NCBI GenBank assembly: GCA_900315065.1 | Contig: OMXQ01000022.1 | Coordinates: 1 to 32,291 of the forward strand | DNA length: 32,291 nucleotides | Direction: 5' to 3' | Origin: an uncultured Erysipelotrichaceae bacterium | GTDB lineage: Bacteria > Bacillota_I > Bacilli_A > Erysipelotrichales > Erysipelotrichaceae | Shown here: positions 280 to 28,125 of the stretch, piece by piece | Layout: each line of letters starts with the position of its first letter | Position numbering within the stretch: the first letter of the stretch is position 1 | Translations under genes and position numbers: made by a program | Notes under the pieces: generated by a model | Seen by the model: only the letters and a program-made list of their open reading frames with translations | What the model was told of the DNA's origin: nothing | Databases searched by the model: none

Positions 280-1539
280 ATGTATTATACCCGCAATGTC
301 AGTATAAAACAGAATAGTCCCCTTTATCCGTATCTGGACAGGATTGCGCATCTTTCCCTCAACCTGTACAATGCGGGTCTTTTCCGTGAGAGACAGCTGA
401 TGACTTCTTCAAAGAAAGCTGAATGTGACTGGTATGATCACGAAAGAGAAATCCGGAAGGAAGCAGCAGGAGTCAGTGACCTCAAAGTGAAACATGTTGT
501 CAGAGACCTGAAATCTTTTTTTGAAGCAATGAAGCAATACAAGACTAATCCCAAGATGTTTACCGGAAAGCCGAAATTACCGGGATACAAGCATAAGGGA
601 GGAACTTCATCCTTTGATATTTCTAACCAGGACTGTGCGATTTATCAGAATAAGAAAGGTTCCTATTCAGCCAAGCTCCCTCTGATCAGAGAACGTGTAA
701 GTCTTGGAAAGAAAATTCCCGGAAGATTGAAAGAAGTCCATGTCTGCAGGAAACACGATACATATGTTATTTCGTTTGTTTTTGATGACGGGAAAGGAAT
801 ACCTGCAGTTAAGGAAGAAAGCTGCAGAATTGCCTCGATTGATCTGGGCGTAAACAATCTGATGGCAGTGACAAACAACTGCGGACTGGAGTGCATTCTG
901 TTTAACGGGAAACCGCTGAAAGCAGTGAATCAGCTGTACAGTAAAAAATGTGCGAAACTTGCGAGCGCAATGACAAAAGGAAGTGATAAAAAACTTGAAT
1001 CGACAAAGCAATACAGGAGCGTATGTCTGAAAAGAAACAACCGGATTCATGATTATCTGCTGAAAAGTGCAAAGCTGTTCATTACATGGTGCGTAGAAAA
1101 TCGTATCGACACTGTAGTAATCGGAGCCAATGCATTCTGGAAGCAGGAAGTGGATATGGGCAGTCAGAACAATCAGACCTTTGTACAGATTCCTTATGAT
1201 CAGCTGAAAAGAATGATCCAATGGCAATGTGAAAGAAACGGAATACGATATGAGGAGCAGGAAGAATCTTATACATCAAAGGCATCCTTTCCGGATCGGG
1301 ATGATATCCCGCTGTATGAAGAAACGGATGACGAAGATGAAAAGAAAGAAAAGCCTGTATTCAAAGGCACTCGTATCAGAAGAGGCATATATCAGTCCTG
1401 GAATGGAACAAAGATCAATGCCGATCTGAATGGAAGTGCAAACATATTACGGAAAAAGTTTGGAGAAGTATTTGTAACAGAGCCGGATTTCAGTAATGTC
1501 AGATACATACTGCATCCGGATATTGCATTAAACAGGTAA
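280..1539 (+). CDS. tnpB: TnpB (IS605 OrfB), RNA-guided nuclease family, with altered RuvC-II and no zinc finger
   Basis: The product has 419 residues, a normal TnpB length. The start follows an AGGAG site 9 bases upstream. An N-terminal helical region (about 1-180) precedes a split RuvC nuclease. RuvC-I is IASIDLGVNNL with D188. RuvC-III is NADLNGSANI with D382. At the usual RuvC-II position the sequence is TVVIGANAFWKQ (279-289), without the expected glutamate. A glutamate pair follows in EEQEESYTSKASF (E328/E329), and a rearranged glutamate is known in some TnpB groups. The usual CxxC...CxxC zinc finger between RuvC-II and RuvC-III is absent, replaced by an acidic stretch at about 347-357. 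Family members use an RNA from the element's right end to cut DNA at the donor site. Whether this one is active is an inference. Confidence 0.92.
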   Translation: MYYTRNVSIKQNSPLYPYLDRIAHLSLNLYNAGLFRERQLMTSSKKAECDWYDHEREIRKEAAGVSDLKVKHVVRDLKSFFEAMKQYKTNPKMFTGKPKLPGYKHKGGTSSFDISNQDCAIYQNKKGSYSAKLPLIRERVSLGKKIPGRLKEVHVCRKHDTYVISFVFDDGKGIPAVKEESCRIASIDLGVNNLMAVTNNCGLECILFNGKPLKAVNQLYSKKCAKLASAMTKGSDKKLESTKQYRSVCLKRNNRIHDYLLKSAKLFITWCVENRIDTVVIGANAFWKQEVDMGSQNNQTFVQIPYDQLKRMIQWQCERNGIRYEEQEESYTSKASFPDRDDIPLYEETDDEDEKKEKPVFKGTRIRRGIYQSWNGTKINADLNGSANILRKKFGEVFVTEPDFSNVRYILHPDIALNR

Positions 1540-15034: not shown

Positions 15035-16696
15035 TTATTTTTTCAAAGCTTCGCGCAGATGAGCGGAAAGCTTCATGTTTTCGGAATAATCGACCTTTAC
15101 GGTAATGACGGAAGGAACATCCTGCTGGAAAGCATCTTTCAAAGAGGCAATCAATTCTTCTTCACTGCCTGCATGATAGCCCTTGCAGCCCATAGCTTCC
15201 GCATACTTTTTGAAATCAGGATTGGAGAAAGATACGTAGCAGGATTCCCCGTATCTTTCTTTTTCTTTCCAGTCAATGAGTCCATACTGGTCATCCTGCC
15301 AGATGAGAATGACAATCGGCAGATGTTCACGCAAAGCTGTTTCGAGTTCCTGGGAATTCATCATGAAACCGCCGTCACCGCATACTGCTACAACTTTCTG
15401 CTCCGGGTGCAGAAGCTTGGCACTGATAGCACCTGGAATGGAAAAGCCCATGCTGGCAAAGCCGTTGGAAATCAGGCATGTATTCGGTTCTTCCGGATGG
15501 TAATGTCTGGCAACCCACATCTTATGGGCACCGACATCGGAAAGCACAATATCATTTTTATCGAGCAGGTTCTTAAGGTCTCTGAGAATGCGGGCAGGTT
15601 TCATCGGATAGGAAGAATCGGACGCAAGTTCATCCTCTTCATTGCGCATCTGCTGCCTGATCGGCTCGATCCAATGCGGCTCAGGCTTGGCATCGATGAT
15701 ATCCATGATGTGATCCAGAGAATAGGAAATGTCACCGATGACTTCCGTTTCAGGCTGGAAATTGCGGTTGATATCTGCCGGTCGGACGCCGATGTTGATA
15801 ATCTTTGTTTCGGGATTGGAATGCCATTTGAGCGGTGCACATTCGACAAGATCATAACCGACTGCAATCACAAGATCTGCCTGGTCAAAAGCTTCATTGA
15901 CATAATCACGCTGCGGAATCCCGAGCGTCCAGAGATTATATGGACTATCGCTTGGCAAAATGCCTTTTGCCATCATGGTATTGGCACACGGAATGTGCAG
16001 ACCATCCACAAAACGACGCAATGCATTCACTGCATGGGCACGCACAACTACATTGCCTGCCAGAATGACAGGTCTTTGAGCCGTTCTGATTAATTCAGCT
16101 GCTTCGAGAATAGAACGCGCCGGTGCATATTCCGGATCCGCATGGTGCTGCTTCAAAGGACGGGCACTTGTCTTTGTATGTGCAATGTCCTTCGGCACAT
16201 CGATATGGGTGGAACCAGGCTTTTCACTCTGAGCATACTTGAAAGCAAGGCGGATAATCTCACCTGTTGTATCCGGGGTAATGATCTGCTTGGATCTTTT
16301 AGTAATCGGGGCAAACATGCTGGTAAGGTCAAGATACTGATGGCTTGTCAGCTGCATGCGTTCTGTCTCAACCTGGCCGGTAATGGCGACAAGCGGTGCC
16401 CCGTCAAGGAAGGCATCAGCAACCCCGGTCATCAGATTGGTAGCACCCGGCCCAAGCGTTGACAGACAAACGCCTGCCTTGCCTGTGAGTCTGCCGTAGA
16501 CATCTGCCATAAAGGCAGCTCCTTGTTCGTGTCTTGTAAGAATGAAACGGATGCCGCTGTCGCGGATGGCAAACATCAGATCGATTGTTTCTTCACCAGG
16601 AATGCCGAAAATGGCTTTGACCCCTTCCTGTTTCAGGCCTTCTACCAGAACCTGAGCAACCGTTTTTTCATCGTCGTTAGTAATAGGTTTCTCCAT
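15035..16696 (-). CDS. alsS: Acetolactate synthase, catabolic AlsS type (thiamine-diphosphate enzyme)
   Basis: The 553-residue product joins two pyruvates to acetolactate with release of CO2. It has the catalytic glutamate E35 in FGIPGEE, RHEQGAAFMADVYGR, TLGPGATNL, and the thiamine-diphosphate motif beginning GDGGFMMNSQELETA near the C-terminal third. Length and motifs fit the FAD-independent fermentative AlsS group rather than biosynthetic IlvB. No regulatory subunit gene (ilvN) and no acetolactate decarboxylase (alsD/budA) is in the window. The start at 16696 has AAGGAG 5-6 bases upstream. An in-frame extension to 16735 lacks such a site. It ends in its own terminator. Confidence 0.88.
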   Translation of the reverse strand: MEKPITNDDEKTVAQVLVEGLKQEGVKAIFGIPGEETIDLMFAIRDSGIRFILTRHEQGAAFMADVYGRLTGKAGVCLSTLGPGATNLMTGVADAFLDGAPLVAITGQVETERMQLTSHQYLDLTSMFAPITKRSKQIITPDTTGEIIRLAFKYAQSEKPGSTHIDVPKDIAHTKTSARPLKQHHADPEYAPARSILEAAELIRTAQRPVILAGNVVVRAHAVNALRRFVDGLHIPCANTMMAKGILPSDSPYNLWTLGIPQRDYVNEAFDQADLVIAVGYDLVECAPLKWHSNPETKIINIGVRPADINRNFQPETEVIGDISYSLDHIMDIIDAKPEPHWIEPIRQQMRNEEDELASDSSYPMKPARILRDLKNLLDKNDIVLSDVGAHKMWVARHYHPEEPNTCLISNGFASMGFSIPGAISAKLLHPEQKVVAVCGDGGFMMNSQELETALREHLPIVILIWQDDQYGLIDWKEKERYGESCYVSFSNPDFKKYAEAMGCKGYHAGSEEELIASLKDAFQQDVPSVITVKVDYSENMKLSAHLREALKK

Positions 16697-16773
16697 GTTT
16701 TCTCCTTTTGTCGTCAGCGCCGGCAATAACTGCATAAGATATTACTGCAGATTACCTCAAAGAGGAAATTTTC

Positions 16774-24906: not shown

Positions 24907-25929
24907 TTAAGCAATGTGACGGATCCAGCCTTCCGGTGCTTCAATCCGGCCGTTCTGGATGCCTGTAATTGTATTATACAATTCTGTAATAACTGGTCCA
25001 GCGTGATCCATGCCGGATGGGAAGTTGATTTCTTCATCATGATCAACAATCTTGCCGACTGGGGAAATAACAGCTGCGGTTCCGCAGCACCCTGCTTCAT
25101 CAAAGCCCTTTACTTCCTCAAACTTTACCGGTCTTTCTTCTACCTTCAGTTTCAGATAATGCTCAGCGATATATACAATGGAACGTCTTGTGATAGACGG
25201 CAGAATGGAATCTGACTTCGGTACAATCACTGTCTTATCCTTGACGAAGATCACATTGGATCCCCCTGTTTCTTCCACGAATGTACGTGTGCCAGGATCC
25301 AGATACAGGTTCTCATTATATCCTGCCTGATGGCACAGGACGGACGCATGAAGAGACATTGCATAGTTCAGGCCTGCCTTGACTGCCCCGGTGCCGTGAG
25401 GTGCTGCTCTGTCATAATCGGATACCTGCAGAACAATCGGGGTAACCCCACCTTTATAATAAGGACCAACCGGTGTGGTGAATACACGGAACTGATATGT
25501 ATCTGCCGGCTTGACACCGATGACGACGCCTGTCGCAAATTCATACGGACGGATATACAGGGAAGCTCCGGATCCATACGGAGGAACCCAGTCAAGATTG
25601 CCTTTGACAACCTGATCAATTGCGTCCAGGAACTTCTCCTTCGGTACCGGCGGCATCTCAATCCGCTGGGCACTATTGTAGATTCTTTCCGCATTCAGAT
25701 CAGGACGGAAGCACACAACTTCTCCATTCTCCCATGTATATGCCTTCATGCCTTCAAATACCTGCTGGCAATACTGCAGAATGCCGGCACTTTCATTGAT
25801 CGTTACATTCGGATCATCCACCAGTCTGCCTTCATCCCAGGCGCCGTCCTTATAATTGGATACATAGCGCTTGTCTGTCTGATGATAATTGAATCCGATT
25901 GAATCCCATTTCAGATCTTTTTTTGCCAT
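24907..25929 (-). CDS. ilvE: Branched-chain amino acid aminotransferase IlvE
   Basis: The 340-residue fold-type IV PLP enzyme interconverts leucine, isoleucine and valine with their keto acids. It has the PLP lysine K184 in AVKAGLNYAMSL, YIRPYEFATG near 125-134, the EETGGSNVIFV segment and the GCCGTAAVISPV segment near the C-terminus. Length and motifs fit the eukaryote-like/Firmicutes BCAT group. AAGGAG lies 10 bases before the ATG. It follows the CstA-family gene by 40 bases with no terminator between, so it falls under the same T-box control, which agrees with a branched-chain amino acid role. Confidence 0.95.
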   Translation of the reverse strand: MAKKDLKWDSIGFNYHQTDKRYVSNYKDGAWDEGRLVDDPNVTINESAGILQYCQQVFEGMKAYTWENGEVVCFRPDLNAERIYNSAQRIEMPPVPKEKFLDAIDQVVKGNLDWVPPYGSGASLYIRPYEFATGVVIGVKPADTYQFRVFTTPVGPYYKGGVTPIVLQVSDYDRAAPHGTGAVKAGLNYAMSLHASVLCHQAGYNENLYLDPGTRTFVEETGGSNVIFVKDKTVIVPKSDSILPSITRRSIVYIAEHYLKLKVEERPVKFEEVKGFDEAGCCGTAAVISPVGKIVDHDEEINFPSGMDHAGPVITELYNTITGIQNGRIEAPEGWIRHIA

Positions 25930-25969
25930 AGAAACTAATCTCCTTTTCCTTTTCTTACTAAGATACTAT

Positions 25970-27736
25970 TCAGAATCCTTTCTGTGAAGCTGTGGAAGAA
26001 GGAAATTCAGGTGTTTTTTCTTCATCTGCTGCAAGTTTTCCATTCTTTACATCGATCAGTCTTCTGATGCATGTATAAGCTACCTTGACACCGAGGGCAA
26101 GCAGACCGACTGCGATGATCAGCTGCAGGCCGTTCTTAAGGAAAGTGCCTTTGCCTGCCATAAAGGCCGTGACATTGCCGTACACATTCATCAGAATTGC
26201 AGTGAAGGTTACACAGAGCATGATGATCATCGGTACATACAGCATTGCGCTCTTTCTTCTCGTTGCCTTCAGGAAGATCGCTACACCGACAAGTACCAGG
26301 GCTGCCAGCATCTGATTGGCTGCACCGAACAATGCCCACACATTCTGATATCCGCCTAAAGCTAACAGATAACCTGGAAGCAGAGTTACAACTGTTGCAA
26401 AATACTGATTGGTAAAGAGTCTCTGCCAAGCCGGCATCTTTGCAGGATCTGTTGTATCACCCGTGAATAATTCCTGAAAGCTCATTCTGCCGATACGGGC
26501 TACAGAATCAAGGGATGTAAGAGCCAGGGCAGATACACACATGGTCATGAACACGGCTGCAACAGTATTAGGAACACCCATGCTTTCCAGGAAACCCGCA
26601 ACACCTGCTGAGAAGATCTGGAAAGGCGTCATATTGGCCGGTGCAAATCCTCCCTTGGCAACTGCACCGACAACAATCAGTGATACTACGCCGAGCAATG
26701 TTTCAAACAACATAGCGCCATAGGAGCAGAACAACATATCCTTTTCATTGGAAACGGTCTTGGAACTTGTACCGGAAGATACCAGAGAATGGAAGCCGGA
26801 AACAGCACCGCAGGCAATGGTGACAAACAATGTCGGGAACAAATAAGACTTATTGCCGGTGGCACTGGTCACGACAAATCCGTTGAAGGCATTCAGCTGC
26901 ATATCAGGTCTGGCCAGAACAACACCAACGACACCGCCCAGGATCATGCCCAGTAACATGAAGGTTGTCAGATAATCTCTTGGTTCCATCAACATCCACA
27001 TCGGCATAACGCTTGCCATGAACAGATAGATCATGATGACATAGTTCCACTGACCGGCTGTCAGATATACCGGTAATTTCATACCGACGGCAAACATGAC
27101 AACCAGAAGCACCAGGGCAACTACTACATTCTGCCATTCCTTGCGGTTTCTGAATTTTCTCATATAGAAACCGAAGCCGATCGCTACAACAATGAACAGC
27201 ATGGAAATTGTTGCGGCAGCAGCACCATTGAAGTTCTTTACAACTGCACCAGTGGAATCTGTTGTGAAACCATTGAATGTGGAACTGTCCATGGAAGTAA
27301 AAGCCGCAATAACAAGCAAAGTGAACAACCAGCAGAACAAGGAGAAACACCTTCTGCCTGTCTTGCCGATATACTTTTCAATGACCATGCCTATCGACTT
27401 GCCTTCATTCTTTACGGAAGCATACATGGCACCGAAGTCCTGAACAGCACCGAAGAATACGCCGCCGACTAACAGCCACAGCAATACCGGAACCCATCCG
27501 AAAGCAGCAGCCAGAATCGGTCCCTGTACCGGACCGGCACCGGCAATGGAAGAAAACTGATGCGCAAAGACAGTTAATTTGGAAGATGGAACAAAGTCCT
27601 TTCCGTCATTGTTTCTGACGGCCGGCGTTTCAGCCTTGGGATCAACACCCCAGGTTTTCGCCAGCCAGCGTCCGTAAAGCAGATAGCCGCAGAGCAGCAC
27701 AACAGCAGCAAATACCAGAATCACAAGTCCATTCAT
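25970..27736 (-). CDS. cstA: CstA-family (carbon starvation protein) membrane transporter
   Basis: The 588-residue product has many membrane helices through most of its length. It shows the family's N-terminal pattern: LLYGRWLAKTWGVD, VPSSKLTVFAHQFSSIAGAGPVQGPILAAAFGW, and VQDFGAMYASVKNEGKSIG. CstA relatives import peptides or pyruvate in enterobacteria. Control by a T-box and co-transcription with ilvE suggest that this one takes up amino acids, peptides or branched-chain keto acids; that is inference. A GGAGAGAG stretch precedes the ATG. The sequence appears full length. Confidence 0.92.
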   Translation of the reverse strand: MNGLVILVFAAVVLLCGYLLYGRWLAKTWGVDPKAETPAVRNNDGKDFVPSSKLTVFAHQFSSIAGAGPVQGPILAAAFGWVPVLLWLLVGGVFFGAVQDFGAMYASVKNEGKSIGMVIEKYIGKTGRRCFSLFCWLFTLLVIAAFTSMDSSTFNGFTTDSTGAVVKNFNGAAAATISMLFIVVAIGFGFYMRKFRNRKEWQNVVVALVLLVVMFAVGMKLPVYLTAGQWNYVIMIYLFMASVMPMWMLMEPRDYLTTFMLLGMILGGVVGVVLARPDMQLNAFNGFVVTSATGNKSYLFPTLFVTIACGAVSGFHSLVSSGTSSKTVSNEKDMLFCSYGAMLFETLLGVVSLIVVGAVAKGGFAPANMTPFQIFSAGVAGFLESMGVPNTVAAVFMTMCVSALALTSLDSVARIGRMSFQELFTGDTTDPAKMPAWQRLFTNQYFATVVTLLPGYLLALGGYQNVWALFGAANQMLAALVLVGVAIFLKATRRKSAMLYVPMIIMLCVTFTAILMNVYGNVTAFMAGKGTFLKNGLQLIIAVGLLALGVKVAYTCIRRLIDVKNGKLAADEEKTPEFPSSTASQKGF

Positions 27737-27780
27737 AATCTTTTCTCTCTCCTTTTCATGAATGTCTGTTTCAGTAAATA

Positions 27781-27831
27781 AAAACTTCCGTCCTGAACCA
27801 GTGCAGATGCACTGAGGCTCAAAGACGGAAG
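27781..27831 (-). terminator. Regulated terminator of the T-box leader
   Basis: On the minus strand CTTCCGTC and GACGGAAG form the base, with inner GAGCC/GGTTC and CAGTGC/GCACTG pairing and a 4-base loop, followed by TTTTTATTT. Its left side overlaps sequence needed for the antiterminator. Confidence 0.93.
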
Positions 27832-28090
27832 CAATTTCCGCGGTACCACTTTGATTGCACGTATTTACTTATACTTACGTGCCACTTTACTCCCGACGTT
27901 TTTACACAGCAGGATGCCCTGTAACGGAGGCTTTCCGGCGAAATCTACTCACCTTGCGGCTTTCGACCAGCTGCTGGCAGAGGATACCTTGTTTCCCTTC
28001 GTGCGCTGTCTTTCACCATACGACAGCTCTCTGAAGCAGATCCAGGAACAGGACTATTCTGCGTCATAGCAGTATTTATTTCTGAAACTA
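27785..28090 (-). promoter_or_regulatory. T-box riboswitch leader upstream of cstA-ilvE, tentative isoleucine specifier
   Basis: On the minus strand the conserved T-box core AAAGTGGTACCGCGG (27838-27852) is present; its variable T would pair with an A discriminator base. Stem I has AGAGAG followed by a GCTGTC/GACAGC hairpin whose loop contains GGTGAAA (about 28007-28032). Stem III is GCACGTA/TACGTGC (27857-27882). A manual fold places GCAGA against TCTGC beside the specifier loop and puts ATC (27983-27985) as the specifier codon, which is isoleucine. That reading is tentative because a C, not a purine, follows it. Uncharged tRNA would stabilise the antiterminator and allow transcription. Confidence 0.95.
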
Positions 28091-28096
28091 TGAAAA

Positions 28097-28125
28097 AATA
28101 TACAGATGCGCTTTCAAATTGTCAA
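28097..28125 (-). promoter_or_regulatory. Promoter of the T-box-cstA-ilvE transcript
   Basis: On the minus strand a perfect TTGACA (28120-28125) and TATATT (28097-28102) are 17 bases apart, ending just upstream of the T-box stem I. This is a strong sigma-A promoter, as expected for attenuation control. Confidence 0.85.

Follow-up and report, generated by a model that had tools for sequence, protein, structure and literature searches.

An isoleucine-type T-box leader on a cstA-ilvE unit in an uncultured Erysipelotrichaceae bacterium suggests possible salvage of branched-chain 2-oxo acids

In contig OMXQ01000022.1 of an uncultured Erysipelotrichaceae bacterium (assembly GCA_900315065.1), a T-box leader lies directly upstream of cstA, which encodes a CstA-family membrane transporter, and of ilvE, which encodes a branched-chain aminotransferase. 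The 32,291 nucleotides that were analysed are referred to here as the window, and the genome they belong to, G000, is 96.5% complete. We found that the leader very probably responds to tRNA-Ile, and that the substrate of this CstA is probably related to the branched-chain amino acids. Branched-chain 2-oxo acids are the substrate we favour, at somewhat short of an even chance. We also propose, still more tentatively, a dedicated branched 2-oxo acid salvage route, in which a CstA carrier under isoleucine or leucine T-box control feeds a co-induced IlvE in gut or rumen Erysipelotrichaceae-like bacteria that do not synthesize branched-chain amino acids.

The leader matched the T-box family RF00230 over the whole covariance model (positions 1-219 of 219), and its 93.2 bits (E 2.2e-19) just exceeded the gathering score of 93. 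It contains a specifier codon, a UGGU motif opposite the discriminator base A of the tRNA-Ile(GAT) that the genome itself encodes, and a terminator that competes with the antiterminator (Table 1). The terminator hairpin folded at -26.1 kcal/mol (z -5.6), and none of 200 shuffled sequences folded equally well. An initial annotation, made from the sequence alone, had described a leader with the main T-box parts, and both this description and its coordinates proved correct. The same annotation had called the promoter perfect; it is one base short of that, and is the best among seven promoter-like sites in 3.5 kb. Another terminator-like hairpin (28241-28220) closes the gene upstream of the promoter. 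The cstA stop and the ilvE start are 40 bases apart, and because a scan of the minus strand found no terminator-like site between the two genes while such a site, at 24877-24864, follows ilvE, they are most simply read as one transcription unit.

The specifier was read with a script that locates the helix below the Stem I bulge and takes the codon by the TBDB position, defined in the accessible text of PMC7778990 as positions 2-4 counted from the 3' end of the bulge. This register rule replaced minimum free energy folding of the whole Stem I, which gave sensible bulges in some leaders only. For the window leader, the script returned ATC (isoleucine) with a score of 18. Seventeen other leaders from the same genome served as controls, with their target genes named by eye and no family search. 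Nine were read in frame (tyrS, thrS, valS, serS, ileS, asnB, hisZ, and two metQ-like genes), three were one frame off (leuS, lysS, metG), two gave unexpected codons (GAC for hisS and GCA for cysS), and in three no helix was found (alaS, pheS, and a metE-like gene). The specifier loop of the window leader is not quite canonical, with GGT replacing the usual GAA and C following the codon where a purine is usual. TCC, one frame on, was the second-best reading (16 versus 18) and was rejected because this frame varies among relatives (TCC, TCA).

Two of the control leaders have features of their own. The cysS leader (L023:157-333, plus strand), read as GCA by the register rule, has no TGC or TGT in place and carries UGGA, which would presumably fit a U discriminator in tRNA-Cys. 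In the hisS leader (L009:1501-1708, minus strand), the GAC codon overlaps a CAC two bases on; a hisS-aspS leader is thought to sense both tRNAs, according to the accessible text of PMC4342826.

Family and order searches yielded 31 genomes, in two families, with a full-length, orthologue-like cstA locus. Their CstA proteins were 41.6 to 88% identical to that of the window by BLASTP, and the lowest, from G011, may be a non-orthologue. A T-box was located directly upstream of cstA at 16 of the 31 loci: nine of 15 in one scan (L038, a fragment, lies outside the 31), five of 14 in another, and those of G130 and G128, the latter recognised by reading of the sequence. No T-box was found at the remaining 15; the upstream sequence covered 1500 bases at 14 of these but just 204 at G070. 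The 16 leaders comprise 17 Stem I units, of which the script read 13 as ATC and three as CTC (leucine; G191, G006, and the upstream unit of G102), and missed one (G001), which is ATC by eye. When 15 of the 16 leaders were aligned independently with MAFFT, the codon position held A or C followed by an invariant TC. The flanking bases vary, and the helix below the bulge alternates between CAGA/TCTG and CAAG/CTTG with its pairs preserved. On these grounds isoleucine, with leucine the sole alternative seen, is the best reading of the specifier, and the leader is linked both to cstA itself and to the branched-chain amino acids. To judge from these leaders, the codon has changed only between branched-chain amino acids. 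Together with the own-genome controls, this upholds ATC as the best-fitting specifier, as initially annotated.

G102 has tandem Stem I units upstream of its cstA-ilvE pair (L025:3278-3638, minus strand), the first with a leucine codon (CTC) and the second with an isoleucine codon (ATC). The extra Stem I scored 33.3 bits (E 0.0012), and one antiterminator and one terminator serve both units. Three changes are needed to place T-box presence on the CstA tree, so the history could be either one gain with two losses or two or more gains. Of 45 wider loci, which include Brevibacillus, Gottfriedia, Campylobacter, and Helicobacter, 19 (within L054-L097) were scanned, and none had a T-box at the gathering score. 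This threshold misses weak leaders: judged by length and match position, L054 is apparently the G225:C76 contig, where a T-box of 79 bits is present.

A T-box upstream of cstA has been described before. In Bacillus methanolicus MGA3, the leader of cstA1 was dismissed as a probable remnant on the grounds that RNA coverage breaks between the start site and the gene; the accessible text of this report (PMC4342826) mentions no ilvE and does not state which amino acid the leader senses. It is very improbable that the window leader is likewise a remnant no longer controlling cstA, given the T-box at 16 of 31 loci and the intact terminator, and a break in coverage after the leader would be expected from T-box termination when the amino acid is present.

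Table 1. Features of the cstA-ilvE unit and its leader, in window coordinates.
Feature	Position	Strand	Basis
Sigma-70-type promoter, TTGACA-17-TATATT	28125-28097	-	11/12 consensus matches
T-box leader, Stem I to antiterminator	28076-27818	-	Rfam RF00230
Helix below specifier bulge, 5' strand GCAGA	28058-28062	-	pairs with 27981-27977
Specifier codon ATC (isoleucine)	27985-27983	-	register rule with own-genome controls; alignment of relatives' leaders
Helix below specifier bulge, 3' strand TCTGC	27977-27981	-	pairs with GCAGA strand
T-box sequence TGGTACCGCG	27839-27848	-	UGGU fits discriminator base A of the genome's tRNA-Ile(GAT)
Intrinsic terminator competing with antiterminator	27830-27779	-	hairpin 27830-27786, then T-rich tail
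cstA, CstA-family membrane transporter, 588 aa	27736-25970	-	PF02554
ilvE, branched-chain aminotransferase type II, 340 aa	25929-24907	-	TIGR01123, NF009897
Terminator-like hairpin after ilvE, unit end	24892-24855	-	-16 kcal/mol, z -3.25

We propose that the leader acts as an attenuator that reads uncharged tRNA-Ile(GAT) and would control both cstA and ilvE. When too little tRNA-Ile is charged, RNA polymerase can read through the terminator in T-box systems of this kind. When isoleucine is plentiful, charged tRNA could not stabilise the antiterminator and transcription would stop at the terminator; when isoleucine is short, the anticodon would pair with the ATC codon and the NCCA end of the tRNA with UGGU, and cstA and ilvE would be made. 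CstA would then import branched-chain 2-oxo acids such as 3-methyl-2-oxopentanoate, which are larger relatives of pyruvate, and IlvE would aminate them to isoleucine, leucine, and valine. Such a route would suit a cell that is unable to make the carbon skeletons of the branched-chain amino acids.

The gene content of G000 is consistent with this proposal. IlvE scored 355.3 bits against TIGR01123 (cut-off 250.05) and was also above the cut-off of NF009897. As initially annotated, the isoleucine specifier matches the branched-chain aminotransferase of the unit. No match to ilvC was obtained in G000, using a search that was positive in 14 of 14 control genomes. In four congeners with this cstA, three had no ilvC match and the fourth had only one at E 1e-4, far below cut-off. 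The sole ilvD-like match in G000 was also below cut-off, and ilvE was present in 31 of 32 genomes. If isoleucine shortage induces the aminotransferase and ilvC is missing, the enzyme should run in the direction of isoleucine, and would therefore need a 2-oxo acid from outside. Enzymes that could supply branched 2-oxo acids from within the cell were sought through the POR domain (PF01558) only; this gave one match per genome in eight of nine genomes and none in G006, and so no second 2-oxoacid:ferredoxin oxidoreductase in G000. The single G000 protein with this domain lies in an open frame of 1199 residues, which we take to be the size of pyruvate:ferredoxin oxidoreductase.

That ilvC is lost while ilvE is kept favours branched-chain 2-oxo acids over peptides as the imported solute. 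The initial annotation had predicted that the CstA relative moves isoleucine-related substrates or peptides; the conserved ATC/CTC leader on cstA makes an isoleucine-related solute a reasonable expectation, whereas peptides are disfavoured. Uptake of small isoleucine-containing peptides by a peptide-scavenging auxotroph would agree with the missing ilvC, and peptide use is impaired in E. coli, Campylobacter, and Salmonella when cstA is mutated (work cited in the accessible text of PMC7730263). However, the cstA-ilvE unit contains no peptidase, peptides do not require ilvE, and a peptide carrier need not track one amino acid so consistently, all of which makes this explanation unlikely.

The window CstA is a clear member of its family, scoring 492.6 bits against PF02554 (gathering 27; E 2.2e-147), the Pfam family that also holds the E. 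coli CstA-YbdD and BtsT-YjiX carriers. For E. coli CstA and for BtsT, the accessible text of two reports gives pyruvate, the smallest of the 2-oxo acids, as the transported solute (PMC7730263, PMC5847655). The window protein is 31% identical to E. coli CstA, and 31-33% across E. coli CstA and BtsT. Unlike the E. coli pyruvate carriers, it has no YbdD-type partner and is under different control, and it lacks the long insertion that precedes the DAGTR motif in E. coli CstA. In E. coli K-12, the RefSeq annotation places hcxA, for a hydroxycarboxylate dehydrogenase, and ybdL, for a methionine transaminase, right after cstA-ybdD; these neighbours hint, on weak grounds, at 2-oxo acids.

Pyruvate itself, imported as a precursor of branched-chain amino acid synthesis and induced by their shortage, has the advantage of being the proven E. 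coli substrate, and ilvC is found in 10 of the 16 T-box genomes. An acetolactate synthase-like gene, above the cut-off of NF006187, is convergent to cstA in G225 (L185:3463-5103), and a similar one, by eye, encodes a 566-aa protein in the window (15035-16735, minus strand). Yet neither G000 nor its four congeners have an ilvC over the cut-off, so acetolactate could not proceed to branched-chain amino acids by the ilvC route, and the only ilvD-like match in G000 falls below its own cut-off. The YbdD-type partner (PF04328) was absent from all 24 genomes searched, with the E. coli control positive, and the window CstA scored 253.9 bits against the 1188 bits required by the pyruvate/proton symporter equivalog NF011590. 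We therefore regard pyruvate uptake for this purpose as quite improbable. The initial annotation had also predicted a role different from that in enterobacteria; branched 2-oxo acids, however, belong to the same chemical class as pyruvate, and the role may extend the known one rather than break with it.

Several observations weigh against branched 2-oxo acid salvage through cstA and ilvE. No ilvE lies beside cstA in 12 of the 16 T-box-cstA units. The gene adjoins cstA in G000, G102, and G191, three genomes of one genus, with gaps of 37-56 bp, and in G006 a distant ilvE (37.5% identical) is divergent from cstA at 602 bp. In G225, the closest relative, ilvE is on another contig, with no T-box in the 11 kb taken, and G182 has an isoleucine T-box and cstA with no ilvE match. 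The retention of ilvC in 10 of 16 T-box genomes belongs here as well, and its loss is only loosely associated with T-box presence (6/16 with a T-box versus 1/16 without; Fisher p 0.08, or 0.018 without G070, whose upstream region is cut); five of the six ilvC-less T-box genomes are of one genus. The accessible text of PMC7730263 describes E. coli CstA as very narrow, with competition by pyruvate and bromopyruvate only. Except in G040, G135, G130, and G128, the ATC units have C after the codon where a purine would be expected. Finally, amino-acid carriers are among the top matches to the predicted fold of CstA, which suits direct amino-acid uptake equally.

Separately from these units, G130 has a class I/II aminotransferase gene (L197:9714-10907, plus strand) two genes downstream of its T-box cstA. 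A short-chain dehydrogenase-like gene, by eye, lies between them on the opposite strand, and G128 has the same order.

The main rival explanation is a BrnQ-like role for CstA, with the branched-chain amino acids themselves being imported and IlvE a passenger that balances the pools of amino acids and 2-oxo acids. The predicted CstA model (pLDDT, the per-residue confidence score, 75.8) has an APC/LeuT-type fold and matched SLC7A10 over 398 residues (VIA Z 24.3; root-mean-square deviation 4.2), although the fold reveals no substrate; no sequence relatives of CstA were found in the PDB. T-box control has been used before to predict that a carrier moves the amino acid that is sensed (accessible text of PMC2494555), BrnQ was not found in G000, and most T-box-cstA units lack a neighbouring ilvE. 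Because of this last point, the leader follows cstA itself, which strengthens the case for an isoleucine-related CstA solute. On the other hand, the literature found, as far as its text was accessible, reports no CstA-family carrier of free amino acids, and the E. coli members carry pyruvate. BrnQ and this CstA coexist in four congeners, and direct uptake would give no obvious function to an ilvE that is induced by starvation in a genome lacking ilvC. Direct uptake is thus a serious possibility, to which we nevertheless give about one chance in three, and branched-chain 2-oxo acids remain our preferred substrate.

T-box control of branched-chain amino acid carriers such as brnQ is a known arrangement, and the window shares with it the full leader, a branched-chain specifier, UGGU, the attenuator terminator, and a downstream carrier gene. 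It differs in having a CstA-family carrier together with ilvE as its target and in lacking the usual GAA in the specifier loop, and one relative, G102, has the tandem leucine and isoleucine Stem I units. Thus, T-box control is known, and cstA is an unusual target with one earlier report. In our literature search on T-boxes with CstA, only the B. methanolicus paper was relevant, and an earlier mention is possible in the surveys of Vitreschak 2008 and Gutierrez-Preciado 2009; the term "csta" is absent from the main text of Wels 2008. Nothing useful came from a literature search on how bacteria use branched keto acids.

G000 has a second transport unit with an ATC (isoleucine) T-box (L202:3454-6056, minus strand; leader L022:1501-1754 on G000:C30), whose leader scored 73.4 bits, below gathering. 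Its genes encode a 391-aa membrane-like protein without a Pfam or NCBIfam match, followed by an M20 amidohydrolase, and the former could be a hitherto unknown carrier that takes an isoleucine conjugate. At L202:382-2451, repeated peptide motifs in spurious frames resemble, by eye, a CRISPR array that has been read through. Elsewhere in the window, 280-1539 (plus strand) encodes a 419-aa protein that resembles a TnpB-type transposon protein by eye, with no family search.

Few features of a sequence reveal what a carrier transports, and T-box specifiers are one of them. CstA is a poorly understood family whose substrate has been contested, with peptides and pyruvate as the candidates; the conserved isoleucine/leucine T-box links it to branched-chain metabolism and suggests that the T-box-cstA arrangement of B. 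methanolicus may have been set aside too early. If the proposed substrate is correct, the CstA family would extend from pyruvate to branched 2-oxo acids. These acids would then be an extra currency of cross-feeding, and some gut or rumen bacteria may live on the keto acids of others.

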